From Desulfobacteraceae bacterium Eth-SRB1 (GTDB taxonomy: Bacteria; Desulfobacterota; Desulfobacteria; Desulfobacterales; ETH-SRB1), in assembly GCA_004193555.1 (NCBI GenBank), contig RPGP01000001.1, positions 794,790-858,789 of the forward strand: a DNA stretch of 64,000 nucleotides, read 5' to 3'. Of the stretch, positions 3,310 through 58,925 are shown piece after piece. The notes beneath the pieces are model-generated. The model searched no databases, was not told the origin of the DNA, and saw nothing but the letters and a program-made list of their open reading frames with translations. The translations under genes and the position numbers were made by a program. How positions within the stretch are numbered: position 1 is the first letter of the stretch; each line of letters opens with the position of its first letter.

Positions 3310-3475
3310 AAAGAGATGAACGTCGAACATCGAACGTCCAACATCGAATGTTGAATAGGAAAAATGAACAAACAAAAATAGCTGTTCTTGGCGCACCTGC
3401 TCCGACCGGGCATAAGCACGGCGAGAAGGAAGTCAGACCTGATGAGGTTATTCCTATGGAAGAAGTGGATTTTTA
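3310..3475 (+). pseudogene. Orphan C-terminal tail of a third chemoreceptor
   Basis: Downstream of cheW, one frame reads ...[19 protein letters not shown], then [20 protein letters not shown] and a close of VIPMEEVDF before TAG at 3473-3475. This aligns residue for residue with the ends of both intact receptors, including the translated ACATCGAACG-type repeat. No start codon, sensor or signalling domain precedes it, so it is what remains of a receptor gene lost by deletion. The final KDF of the other two copies is missing because of an earlier stop. Confidence 0.85.
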
Positions 3476-4131: not shown

Positions 4132-5768
4132 TGAAAAATAAAACGACAAATAAAACGACAAAAAGCGTGCCGTTTATGATCGGCGGGCTTGCGATTCTCT
4201 TTTCACTTATTCTTGGCTCTATAATCTATATTAATATCTCAGATCAACGCAGTCATATTAAAGCAGGGTTAGTTCATACAGCAAACATGCTTGCCGACAC
4301 ATTCTATAACGGCATGATATATCCAATGGCTACAGGTGACTCCAAAGCTATCGAACTCCAGATGGAAGGGTTTGAAGCCTTTACGGAAGAAGGGGAAGAG
4401 GTCTTAATTTTTGGTTTTGACAAGCAGATATCTTATGCCTCTGAAAAAAATAGAATCGGAAATAAGGTAACCGAACTGACCGATTCATCCGACCTTAAAG
4501 CCGCCATCAATCAATTGATACAAAACGGCAGATCCGATAAAACCGGATATGAAGAAATCGCAGGAGGAAAGCCTTACCTGACCACGATTCGCCCAATTCT
4601 GAACGAAAATCGCTGCTCTCACTGCCATGGTTCAAGTCAATCTGTCCTCGGAGGCCTGATGGTAAGAGAGAGTCTCGAAATGATCTATAAAGACCTTGGA
4701 AAGCTTCGGAACAAGAATATAATTATAGGCCTTTTTGGAAGTTTAATCGTTATCCTGACGCTTTTTCTATTGATTTCGAGAGTGGTTATCCGTCCCATTA
4801 AAAGAGTCGCAAATAGACTGCATGAAGCAGTCGGCCAGGTAGCCTCATCATCCGGCCAGGTCTCATCATCAAGCCAGTCTCTTGCCGAAGGAGCATCCGA
4901 GCAGGCAGCCGCAATCGAAGAGACATCATCATCTCTCGAAGAGATGTCCTCCATGACCAAACAGAATGCGGATAATGCGGGTCAGGCAGACAGCCTCATG
5001 AAAGAGACCGGCCATGTGGTTGGAGATGCCAATTCTTCCATGACCGAGCTTACCACATCCATGAAAGATATTTCAAGCGCCAGCGATGAAACCCAGAAGG
5101 TCGTCAAGACAATAGATGAAATCGCATTCCAGACCAATTTGCTTGCTTTAAATGCGGCAGTAGAAGCAGCCCGTGCAGGCGAGGCAGGAGCAGGCTTTGC
5201 AGTAGTGGCTGAAGAGGTCAGAAATCTGGCGCTTCGCTCTGCCGAAGCAGCCAAAAACACGGCTGTGCTGATAGATGGAACAGTAAAAAAGGTCAAAGGC
5301 GGATCAGACCTCGTAGAACGAACCAACAATGCATTCAGCAAGGTTGCGGAAAGTTCCTCCAAAGTAGGAGAACTAATTGCCGAAATCGCCGCGGCATCGA
5401 ATGAGCAGTCCCAGGGCATTGGGCAGACAAACACAGCCGTAGCCGAGATGGACAAGGTAGTCCAGCAGAACGCGGCAAATGCCGAAGAATCCGCCTCCGC
5501 CTCCGAAGAGATGAACGCACAGGCAGAGCAGATGATGGAGATTGTAGAAGAACTGGAAGATCTGGTCGGCGGAAAGGGCCAGAGGTCAGGGATCAAAAAC
5601 GAACATCGAACATCGAACGTCCAACATCGAATGTTGAATGGAAAAAATGAACAAACAAAAATAGCTGTTCTTGGCGCACCTGCTGCGACCGGGCGTAAGC
5701 ACGGCGAGAAGGAAGTCAGGCCTGATCAGGTTATCCCCATGAAAGAAGGGGATTTTAAGGACTTTTAA
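4131..5768 (+). CDS. Haem-c-containing methyl-accepting chemotaxis protein
   Basis: A 545-residue chemoreceptor. TM1 is at about 14-34, and a periplasmic domain of about 160 residues ends with [19 protein letters not shown]. That CXXCH site fits the Tll0287/DUF3365-like haem-binding PAS-type sensors known from Geobacter receptors, so the ligand is probably redox state, NO, CO or O2. TM2 follows at about 195-215, then the signalling domain with the tip [20 protein letters not shown]. The tail has the translated repeat [13 protein letters not shown] and ends [12 protein letters not shown]. The signalling half is nearly identical at DNA level to receptor 1 (offset 3211 bp), which points to gene conversion. 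The GGGGGGG before the start is the likely ribosome-binding site. Confidence 0.95.
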
Positions 5769-5807
5769 TCCACAGATTACGCAGATTACGCAGAAGGCAG
5801 ATAGGCT

Positions 5808-5935
5808 GTAGGCTGTTAGGCTGTTGGTAAAAGGTAGAAGGTAATTATAATTAATATTCCTCCAGCCCTAACAGCCTTCAGCCTAAACAACCTGAGTATA
5901 GTCTTCAGCCTTCAATCTTCTACCTAAATATTAAG
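5808..5935. repeat. Intergenic hairpin of TAGGCTGT oligomers before cheR
   Basis: The left arm is GATAGGCTGTAGGCTGTTAG and the right arm is CCAGCCCTAACAGCCTTCAG followed by CCTAAACAACCTGAGTATAG. The first 60 bp, beginning AATCCACAGATTACGCAG just after the receptor stop, match the sequence after receptor 1. The block downstream of the receptor was therefore duplicated with it. Confidence 0.8.
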
Positions 5936-6780: not shown

Positions 6781-6838
6781 ATGATAGGCTGTAGGCTATT
6801 AGGCTAAAAACTAACAGCCTACAGCCTAAACAACCTGA
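6781..6838. repeat. Cargo-free TAGGCTGT hairpin between cheR and cheD
   Basis: ATAGGCTGTAGGCTATTAGG is followed after a few bases by CTAACAGCCTACAGCCTAAA. This is a nearly perfect hairpin that fills most of the spacer, and it is the simplest member of the family seen in this locus. Confidence 0.85.
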
Positions 6839-6852
6839 GTAGGTATAACTTT

Positions 6853-7335
6853 ATGAGCCGGATTATAGTCGGAATTGCAGATCTCAGAATAAGTCAAAAT
6901 ATTGACGATGCGTTGATTACTTATGCGCTCGGCTCATGTATTGGTATTGCTGTTTATGATCCAGGAGTAAGAGTAGGAGGGCTACTGCATTTTATGCTTC
7001 CGGACTCATCGCTTGATTTAAACAAGGCAAGACAGACCCCTGCAATGTTTGCCGATACGGGCATACCTTTTCTGTTCAAATCGTGTTACAGGTTGGGAGC
7101 AAAAAAAAAACGTATGGTCGTAAAGATTGCCGGTGGCGCCAATATCCTGGATAATTCAAACTATTTTCGGATCGGCCAGAGAAACATAACCGCCTTAAGA
7201 AAGATATTCTGGAAAAATAATGTCCTGATAGATGGAGATGACACCGGTAAATCTCACAACCGGACCGTTCAACTGAATATTTTTAGCGGCAATGTTGTTG
7301 TTAAGAACTCCAGCGGGATATGGAAGGAGTTGTAG
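6853..7335 (+). CDS. cheD: Chemoreceptor glutamine deamidase CheD
   Basis: CheD deamidates receptor glutamines and is stimulated or inhibited through CheC-type phosphatases. The 160-residue protein has the family core: YALGSCIGIAVYD with the catalytic Cys, GGLLHFMLPDSS with the catalytic His, and KIAGGANIL. The length matches intact CheD. It is the intact copy; a second, broken cheD lies at 8481-8871. ATG 6853 has no strong ribosome-binding site (GTAGGTATAACTTT). Confidence 0.95.
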   Translation: MSRIIVGIADLRISQNIDDALITYALGSCIGIAVYDPGVRVGGLLHFMLPDSSLDLNKARQTPAMFADTGIPFLFKSCYRLGAKKKRMVVKIAGGANILDNSNYFRIGQRNITALRKIFWKNNVLIDGDDTGKSHNRTVQLNIFSGNVVVKNSSGIWKEL

Positions 7336-7338
7336 GGT

Positions 7339-7569
7339 AACCGTTCACAGTTTACAGTTATCGGTTCACGGTTAAAAAAAACAGATTGCACTAGGAACGG
7401 TTGCGGAGCTGAGAACACATATTTATATTTCATGAGAACTTATATATTTTCTGATTTAGATGCGAAAGAATTAATTCAAAAATTGAAATCAATATCCAAA
7501 ACGCTTCAATCGTTGCATAGTTCATTGGAAAAACTGTGAACTGTGAACCGACAACCGTGAACGGTTAAG
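7339..7569. repeat. Oligomer-ended element carrying an S23 gene remnant
   Basis: The left end begins ACCGTTCACAGTTTACAGTT and continues CGGTTCACGG. The right end is GTGAACCGACAACCGTGAAC, so the ends are inverted copies of one another. Between them is a decayed four-helix-bundle gene (7394-7538). The same left end, gene end and right end recur at 58692-58900, so this is one repeated element. Confidence 0.8.
7394..7538 (+). pseudogene. Remnant of an S23-type four-helix-bundle gene (C-terminal part)
   Basis: One frame reads GTVAELRTHIYIS and hits TGA; an adjacent frame then reads DLDAKELIQKLKSISKTLQS and ends LHSSLEKL at TGA 7536-7538. Both segments match the last third of S23-type four-helix-bundle proteins. 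The N-terminal two thirds are absent and a frameshift separates the two pieces. Confidence 0.8.
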
Positions 7570-7578
7570 GGAGTTATT

Positions 7579-13231: not shown

Positions 13232-13243
13232 TAAAACTTGAAA

Positions 13244-13410
13244 TCAGCGATTAGCGATTAGCTGTTAGCTGTTAGCTGTTAGCTGTTAGATAAATAATTT
13301 TAGAAAGTTATGGCAAGTCTTGTTTTCACCTGTTGGGTGATAATGTTTACTGAAAGAAAAGCTTTAAAATTCAAAGGCTGACGGCTAATAGCCAACAGCT
13401 AATCGCTCAA
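13244..13410. repeat. AGCTGTTAGCTGTT hairpin element with conserved cargo
   Basis: The left end is GCGATTAGCGATTAGCTG plus four more TTAGCTG units. The right end is GCCAACAGCTAATCGCTCAA. The inner part contains TTTTCACCTGTTGGGTGA (about 13323-13340), which reappears inverted in the element at 23092-23210. It looks like a small repeat element in the spacer between cheX and the hybrid kinase. Confidence 0.75.
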
Positions 13411-29775: not shown

Positions 29776-29778
29776 TTA

Positions 29779-29921
29779 GTGTCCATCCACAAGTGGTAGA
29801 TTTTGGTTCCTGGCAAGGCTCGAGCGTTTTTGCAACCGCAGGCATAGTGCGCCTATTCTGAGGATTGCAAAAAAGTGAGAACGCCGCCAGGGGCCTAAAG
29901 ATGCCATTTGTGGATGGACAC
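29779..29921. mobile_element. Miniature inverted-repeat element (uninterrupted copy)
   Basis: A 143-bp element with terminal inverted repeats GTGTCCATCCACAA/TTGTGGATGGACAC. The centre has CCGCAGGCATA, seven bases, TATTCTGAGGA, flanked by TTTTTGCAA and TTGCAAAAAA arms. It matches the outer element at 48918-49203 in reverse orientation but has no nested insert, so it represents that element's empty site. It lies between ispE and tRNA-Gln, ending six bases before the tRNA. No transposase is encoded. Confidence 0.85.
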
Positions 29922-29927
29922 TTTTTC

Positions 29928-48680: not shown

Positions 48681-48917
48681 CTCATACTTCCTTTTTAAAG
48701 TTTAACCATCTGAGGCTTAATGCCAATGTGGTTTTTTTATATGGTGTTGAAGTTGAGGGCAATCAACAATAAGTAAAAACAAAATTCATACCATAGATAG
48801 CCGCAGGGTATAATAAATTAATTGTTATAAGTTTCAAAGAGATAGCTCAGCATCAACAAATACTGCCAAAATATTATGAAAAAAATTGCCTGCTATGTGT
48901 CAAAAAATTGTCTATTG

Positions 48918-49203
48918 GTGTCCATCCACAAATAGCATCTTTCGGCCCCTGGCGGTGTTCTCACTTTTTTGCAATCCTCGGAGGCTGTCCGAGAATAGCA
49001 ATTTTTTCCAAAATCAAGGCTTGCGAAAAAAATTACCGCAGGCATATAGTTGATATTCCGAGGATAATTTTTTTCGCATAACGCAGAGTTTGGGGAAAAG
49101 GGCATTCTCGGACAGCCTCCTCGGAATAGTCGCAGTATGCCTGCGGTTGCAAAAACGCTCGAGCCTTGCCAGGAACCAGAATCTACCACTTGTGGATGGA
49201 CGC
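48918..49203. mobile_element. Miniature inverted-repeat element interrupted by a second one
   Basis: The outer element has ends GTGTCCATCCACAA and TTGTGGATGGACGC and matches 29779-29921 in reverse orientation, but is 286 bp instead of 143 bp. The extra sequence is the nested element at 48982-49118. Confidence 0.85.
48982..49118. mobile_element. Nested 137-bp miniature element with 6-bp target duplication
   Basis: Perfect 15-bp terminal inverted repeats AGGCTGTCCGAGAAT/ATTCTCGGACAGCCT are flanked on both sides by CCTCGG (48976-48981 and 49119-49124). The uninterrupted copy at 29779-29921 has one copy of that target. Inside is another palindrome, TTGCGAAAAAAATTACC to GATAATTTTTTTCGC, around CCGCAGGCATA and TATTCCGAGGA. 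Confidence 0.85.
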
Positions 49204-49240
49204 TAACTGATAAAATATTGCCGCTTACGATATAAAAATA

Positions 49241-58691: not shown

Positions 58692-58900
58692 GACCGTTCA
58701 CGGTTTACAGTTATCAGTTTACGGTTGAAAAAAACAGAAGGTAGAAGAAAATTATGTGATTCTCTTTTGAAGATTTTCTCGTTCCCATGCGCCCGCGTGG
58801 GAACCAGGCAAAATTGAACATTTTTCAAAGGTCTCAACATACAAGCAATCAGTCGTTGCATAGTTCATTTAAAAAACTGTGAACCGACAACCGTGAACGG
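58692..58900. repeat. Second copy of the S23-carrying oligomer-ended element
   Basis: The left end ACCGTTCACGGTTTACAGTT and right end GTGAACCGACAACCGTGAAC match those at 7339-7569. The cargo is almost gone: 58850-58882 still reads QSLHSSFKKL and TGA, the end of the four-helix-bundle frame. The middle contains CTCGTTCCCATGCGCCCGCG then TGGGAACCAG (about 58779-58807), a palindrome common in this group, and TTTTTCAAAGGTCTC, half of the hairpin at 32059. Confidence 0.75.
58850..58882 (+). pseudogene. Minimal C-terminal scrap of an S23-type gene
   Basis: Eleven codons, QSLHSSFKKL and TGA, align with QSLHSSLEKL and TGA at 7506-7538, and both are followed by the same ACCGACAACCGTGAACGG end. The rest of the gene is deleted. 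Confidence 0.65.
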
Positions 58901-58925
58901 CTACCAAATAAATAATGGATCGGAT

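Follow-up and report, generated by a model that had tools for sequence, protein, structure and literature searches.

To our knowledge, S23 genes, also annotated as 'four helix bundle', have no accepted function, and neither nuclease nor transposase activity is known for S23. Structures have been solved for the S23 relatives 2GSC and 2RLD (five chains each). One described setting of these genes is the intervening sequence of 23S rRNA, in which an S23 gene lies inside terminal inverted repeats that form a long stem; the accessible portions of PMC11270868 also place 23S_rRNA_IVP genes inside insertions found in the rRNA of CPR bacteria. Tandem 7-nt units between genes are described separately, both as the STRR heptamers of cyanobacteria, which can form hairpins and whose function, according to the part of PMC2670836 available to us, was still obscure in 2009, and as the TAACTGA repeats of Beggiatoaceae, Cyanobacteria and Bacteroidetes (accessible text of PMC4679880). 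In the literature covered by our search, outside which most subscription journals fall, S23 genes outside rRNA were not found joined with heptamer ends.

The window analysed here is a stretch of 64,000 nt from the 3.34-Mb draft genome of Desulfobacteraceae bacterium Eth-SRB1 (G000; G and L numbers designate genomes and loci throughout). Alignment bore out the initial annotation in that two loci of the window, at 7337-7568 and 58692-58904, share their left end, their right end and the last codons of an S23 gene, and differ in the cargo that is left: relative to the full-length copy L033, the first retains offsets 52-86 and 301-481, and the second retains offsets 56-128 and 423-479, with other sequence in between. 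The parent element, an S23 (PF05635) gene between inverted arrays of a 7-nt unit, is complete in sister genera (L033, 424 nt; L037, 442 nt), where both copies match PF05635 above the cut-off and hence encode an S23/IVP protein; L349 is a further full-length copy, of 435 nt, and other deletion forms occur elsewhere in the genome (L053, L057 and L061). By these alignments, both window loci are internally deleted copies of one element of ~425-440 nt.

The first derivative (~230 nt, + strand) lies between cheD-like and cheY-like genes, named by reading. Its left arm (7338-7373, +), in which the units GTTCACA, GTTTACA, GTTATCG and GTTCACG can be read, is 78% complementary to its right arm of inverted 7-nt units (7532-7567, +), and alignment to L033 places the 3′ part of the S23 gene at 7385-7539 (+), in an interrupted frame that ends ...LHSSLEKL-stop. 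The second derivative (+ strand) has arms at 58694-58720 and 58874-58900 (81% complementary) and unrelated sequence inside; aligned with L033, its first S23 codons occupy 58754-58776 (+), an ATG at 58754 followed by a stop, and alignments place the last codons, ...SLHSSFKKL-stop, at 58844-58882 (+). A Pfam search gave no S23 match within either locus because both are too degraded, and their S23 content was established by DNA alignment to intact copies. Folded as RNA, positions 7335-7570 had a z of -3.7, equalled by none of 200 shuffles; folded as DNA they had a z of -2.7, equalled by one of 200. Rfam models matched only two tRNAs in the window, and the window elements lie between protein genes, outside rRNA.

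The ends of the element are dispersed. A 22-nt pattern of the right end had 62 matches in the genome with up to three mismatches, whereas the reversed pattern had none. Among 30 fetched copies of the end, 24 matched the full element somewhere and 11 at both ends, and just nine kept at least 20 nt of the S23 interior. The 40 dispersed copies with both ends measured 56-435 nt. No inverted pair 0.4-2.3 kb apart occurred among the end matches of this genome (≤3 mismatches), so that these ends are not seen on any larger element there. The derivative at 7337-7567 matched eight other places in G002, G003 and G004 over almost its whole length, with 78-89% identity. Across the source family, the ends (≤2 mismatches) were present in all 17 genomes, with 3 to 79 matches each; outside the family but within the same order, they were present in 2 of 21 genomes (one and four matches), and the reversed pattern matched in none of these 38 genomes. 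S23 proteins at least 77% identical to that of L033 were found in nine of the 17 family genomes, complete in four, and in none of the 21 order genomes outside the family, where the best match was 43%. The ends and this S23 subfamily extend almost equally far across genomes. Eight of the 17 family genomes had the ends and no S23 of the L033 subfamily at E 1e-6.

The 40 two-ended copies have the borders G[TAACC...GGTTA]C, with G before the element in 31 and C after it in 31. An exact 8-nt direct repeat flanked eight of the 40, against 0.18 expected from permuting right flanks; with up to one mismatch the count was 13 (0.47 expected by the same procedure), and with up to two it was 20 (1.7 expected). 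The copies with exact duplications were derivatives of 77-235 nt in AT-rich spacers, which argues that derivatives themselves moved. The initial annotation had proposed looking for target duplications in the flanks of its two loci; they are present in the family to which these loci belong, but absent at both 7339 and 58692. In other S23 families, exact direct repeats of at least 8 nt bracketed the arms at 7 of 133 loci, versus 2.5 expected, and borders were less sharp there.

Genes were called on both sides of 33 of the 40 copies. Both neighbours ran along the S23 strand in 24 cases and against it in four (binomial p = 2e-4 for 24 versus 4, assuming independent copies), five pairs converged and none diverged; the median gap was 7 nt between the left gene and the copy and 19 nt between the copy and the right gene. 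With a cruder gene call, covering 28 copies, 18 pairs ran along (++), one against (--), three converged (+-) and five diverged (-+). The sense bias may be due to selection or to the mode of insertion.

Comparison of relatives revealed both filled and empty spacers, the sites present or absent between strains that had been suggested as a check. The operon in the window is conserved in G001, from the same genus, and G005, from another genus; G001 carries the element at 7337-7568, and the corresponding spacer in G005 is an empty site of a dozen nt. For the S23-bearing spacers L001, L014, L010 and L004, relatives likewise hold nothing or something else. At L004, G001 is empty, and in G003 and G005 8-nt arrays flank GxxExxY-type genes (a PF13366 match in G003, identified by reading in G005); at L010, G005 has an S23 gene of a different subfamily with TCAGGGG arrays. 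The spacer at 6791 contains a GGCTGTA hairpin in G000, an S23 remnant with TCAGGGA-type ends in G001 and other arrays in G005.

Inverted arrays are a common feature of S23 loci. We scored 187 S23 loci by the best inverted match between their two 300-bp flanks. The sample was uneven: 20 loci came from this genome, 28 from relatives, 62 from the phylum (in which S23 or 'four helix bundle' genes occurred in 152 of 297 sampled genomes) and 77 from the best 80 matches of a capped list, drawn from a scan of named genomes that included Bacteroidetes, Acidobacteria, Planctomycetes, Nitrospirae, Clostridia, candidate phyla, Methanophagales and others; L025, L130, L167, L216, L236 and L241 (short flank or N) and L123, L124, L142 and L170 (incomplete) had been excluded. 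In a same-locus control (n = 282) the 95th percentile was 19 and the 99th was 22.2. Of the S23 loci, 133 exceeded the former and 93 the latter, and 54 lay below the array threshold. The lower threshold of 19 was passed at 5 of 116 other ORFs from these loci, after shuffling of the flanks at 2 of 187, and at none of 23 ParE genes (PF05016; seven of 30 loci were left out for a short flank). Note that one same-locus pair scored 66; it was kept in the control, and percentiles were used rather than the maximum. We used the same-locus and gene controls in place of a mismatched-flank control, whose 99th percentile was exceeded by 9 of 48 loci; TCAGGG-type arrays, common to several loci, had inflated that control.

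At lag 7, the autocorrelation of the 186 arms scoring above the 99th percentile ranged by group from 0.46 to 0.55, and at lag 14 from 0.40 to 0.54, compared with 0.27 in the control; it peaked at lag 7 or 14 in 109 arms and at lag 8 or 9 in 50. On the S23 strand, the purine fraction of arms was 0.64 (0.53 outside) and the C fraction 0.115 (0.234 outside). None of the 60 named S23 loci tested with Rfam, out of 80, had an rRNA model match. We conclude that an S23 gene between inverted arrays is an architecture general over many phyla.

The array unit follows the S23 subfamily. We compared arms with S23 identity for 95 loci with periodic arms, giving 4361 pairs at non-orthologous sites, with pairs from the same genome left out and arms called alike at a score of at least 14. 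Arms were alike in 15 of 16 pairs with S23 identity of at least 0.7, in 48% of 71 pairs at 0.6-0.7, in 11% of 768 pairs at 0.5-0.6 and in ~4% of 3506 pairs below 0.5; the mean of the 87 pairs with identity of at least 0.6 was reached in none of 2000 permutations. Note that the pairs are not independent, and that both filters (periodic arms and non-orthologous sites) were chosen after the unfiltered result, a weak correlation of arm with S23 similarity (Mantel r 0.12, with 1 of 999 permutations as high). Pairs with differing outer flanks have matching arms, and arms of the GGCACAAAG type are common to L024 (from the same family as the window), L180 (Desulfobacteraceae), L181 (Nitrospirae) and L182 (KSB1). 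In Flavobacterium and its kin (L183-L195), S23 genes at a shared site with similar outer flanks have arrays that are partly different, indicating that arrays can be altered at their site or exchanged for others. We conclude that each S23 subfamily has its own array unit.

Other arrays of the window can be read against these arms. At 86-331 on the - strand lies an S23 remnant that lacks its N-terminus (PF05635 at 116-325, E 4.9e-19; stop codon at 86-88). The initial annotation listed it, at 86-339, as a third S23 remnant, and it is a genuine S23 fragment; it is, however, of another subfamily and not a third copy of the element at 7339 and 58692, since the adjoining GGTTGAAGGCTGAAGG-type array (54-100, no strand assigned) matches an arm of a different S23 family, that of L041. 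Arms of S23 elements have matches at fourteen intervals of the window; four of these are the two loci themselves, and three of the remainder fall in sequence also hit by reversed arms. CATCGAA-type arrays at 2425-2465 (+, a single arm seen), 3311-3357 (+) and 5591-5640 (+) resemble the arms of S23 loci L010 and L011 of G000, and a gene-free hairpin at 13242-13407 (+) has arms (13242-13294 and 13377-13407) that resemble those of S23 locus L126. The suggestion that the empty hairpins of the window could be scars of an S23 unit is supported by several arrays, and not by the GGCTGTA hairpins at 2627-2704 and 5802-5885, which match none of the S23 arms compared.

Several further observations concern composite or additional repeats. 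TCAGGGA and CATCGAA arrays at 2353-2590 lie inside a chemoreceptor-like ORF (659-2593), to which they add a C-terminal tail with the frame intact. Another long inverted repeat family (GTGTCCATCCACAA...) occurs at 29778-29922 and 48894-49227, gene-free to the eye, and similar sequence is found at L077. Locus L060 is chimeric, with a CATCGAA-type array on the left and an end of the GTTCACG family on the right. Two S23 genes, L009/L015 (G000:C40:202982-203582) and L008/L012 (G000:C37:8777-9439), are split near model positions 45-51 by an insert of 280-360 bp that, by reading, resembles a small GIY-YIG gene and has the ends ACCCTGTTAAATA...TATTTAACAGGG; this is perhaps another short element, one that targets S23 genes.

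S23 matches were also present on 24 of 72,556 plasmid records, and the 21 whose names were listed all belong to genera that we take to be cyanobacteria; phage records contained no S23 match. Seven of eight cyanobacterial plasmid loci examined had inverted arrays scoring above 19 (Nostoc HK-01 had none), with units such as GGGAGTA (Nostoc edaphicum), GGGAACA (Nostoc C052), GGTGACA (Anabaena 90) and AAAAGCT (Pseudanabaena). On plasmids of Anabaena 90 and Pseudanabaena galeata (L426 and L427), the S23 gene is located between cas6 and cas4. The clean heptamer arrays round S23 genes of cyanobacterial plasmids suggest a link to STRR repeats and to rRNA intervening sequences; from their unit length and host, these arrays are presumably the published STRRs.

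Similar ends surround GxxExxY (PF13366, PDDEXK_3) genes. Inverted arrays were detected at 18 of 26 such loci, compared with 3 of 52 in the same-locus control; four of 30 loci had been left out for a short flank, and one of the 18 passes, L288, is GC-rich with no visible array. Loci with flanking arrays are G003:C89:51152-51493 (L271) and those within L275-L304. By reading, their units are 8-10 nt long, and their mean autocorrelation is weak (0.33-0.34 at lags 8-10). Compared with S23 arms, 7 of the 18 scored above the best of 10 shuffles, and most were unlike. We regard the GxxExxY elements as sister elements of the S23 elements. The loci are as first described, the observation is wider than was stated, and the interpretation that S23 genes and oligomer ends move or spread as one unit is partly supported: the two co-occur at unrelated sites, where close S23 proteins have the same oligomer, but most fetched copies of the end have lost the S23 interior, and the ends of GxxExxY genes count against a strict S23 unit.

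We consider it probable that the two loci derive from short transposon-like elements, in which an S23 gene lies within subfamily-specific inverted arrays of ~7 nt, insertion occurs as DNA at an 8-nt target and S23 acts as an end-binding factor. Such an element would consist of the gene between two inverted arrays of a unit characteristic of its S23 subfamily, and would enter a staggered target as DNA, generating the 8-nt direct repeat, in AT-rich spacers, mostly immediately downstream of a stop codon and in sense orientation within the operon. Internally deleted copies would keep the arrays and would have moved themselves, in which case the moving activity acts in trans, as for MITEs with helper elements; decay would leave solo arrays and hairpins. 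The S23 protein, a four-helix-bundle protein, would be the element's own end-binding factor, and another enzyme would be required for cutting and joining; this role is suggested by the co-inheritance of array and gene and by kinship with Avd (accessible portions of PMC10053308). The anatomy and its generality, the co-inheritance of unit and subfamily at unrelated sites, the target duplication in one family, the filled and empty sites and the many deletion derivatives are the observations on which we base this reading. Counting against it are the family genomes that have the ends and no matching S23, the ends of GxxExxY genes, the 54 S23 loci below the array threshold, the fact that no nuclease or transposase activity is known for S23, the direct repeats at just 7 of 133 loci in other S23 families (2.5 expected) and the absence of a duplication at 7339 and 58692 themselves.

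The same 8-nt duplications raise the likelihood that the arrays are MITE ends moved by an ordinary transposase, from a resident or lost IS with an 8-nt target, and that S23, GxxExxY and other genes are passengers in the loop. Duplications of 8 nt are typical of several transposase families, most copies of the ends have no S23, other genes have such ends, and eight of 17 family genomes have the ends alone. We nevertheless regard this as rather unlikely, since passengers need not have an array unit that tracks their subfamily over phyla, nor need most S23 loci have arrays, and the genome shows none of these ends on a longer element. The duplications lower, by contrast, the likelihood that these are RNA elements, whose arrays are kept as an RNA stem cut from the transcript, as in rRNA intervening sequences, and whose spread is incidental. 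The accessible part of PMC4990558 describes just such a case, a Coxiella intervening sequence with an S23 gene, a 28-bp stem and tandem heptamers that is cut by RNase III, and both the sense direction of copies (24 versus 4) and the RNA fold (z -3.7) would fit; however, stem mismatches show no preference for G-U over A-C (158 versus 171, 95 loci), and duplications and dispersed derivatives indicate DNA insertion, making this explanation improbable.

Tandem arrays can slip and draft assemblies can mislead, and the partly different Flavobacterium arrays at one S23 site could be read as repeats multiplied by recombination, slippage or neighbourhood transfer, with no transposition; the 8-nt duplications, the sharp borders and the agreement of arms despite differing outer flanks make this very improbable. 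A chance or low-complexity artefact has next to no likelihood and was rejected: the arrays are of low complexity, and one control pair did reach 66, but the reversed pattern gave 0 matches against 62, and the gene, same-locus, shuffled-flank, ParE and outside-family controls all argue against it.

Extending the reading of S23 loci as transposon-like elements, we tentatively suggest that S23 could recognise the ends, made of heptamer arrays, of a class of transposable elements that is widespread but so far unrecognised. The rRNA intervening sequences, STRRs and other intergenic heptamer hairpins would be members or scars of this class, and its sister elements would use a PDDEXK-type (GxxExxY) protein and 8-10-nt units. 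Joining S23 genes, STRRs and rRNA intervening sequences to one element type would give each a testable role, and one element type would account for much of the spacer turnover seen here between related species.

The arrays described here resemble both STRRs and TAACTGA repeats in being tandem 7-nt units between genes, and differ from the accounts of these repeats, in whose accessible portions (PMC2670836, PMC4679880) S23 is not mentioned, in bracketing S23 genes. With diversity-generating retroelements they share a related four-helix-bundle protein, Avd (PMC10053308, as far as accessible); unlike those elements they have no obligatory reverse transcriptase, a partner that we rejected since 5 of the 17 family genomes have the ends and no RVT_1 match at E 1e-10, although these drafts are perhaps incomplete. 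Like MITEs, the elements are short and multi-copy, with inverted ends, a target duplication and internal deletions of a longer unit; unlike MITEs, their ends are arrays of a 7-nt unit, and the longer unit encodes S23 and no known transposase. In plan, the elements also resemble the 23S rRNA intervening sequences, with an S23 gene inside terminal inverted repeats and, as in the ~430-nt Coxiella example (PMC4990558, accessible part), tandem heptamers beside the gene; unlike those sequences, the elements described here lie between protein genes, are many per genome, have dispersed deletion derivatives and are flanked by an 8-nt target duplication.
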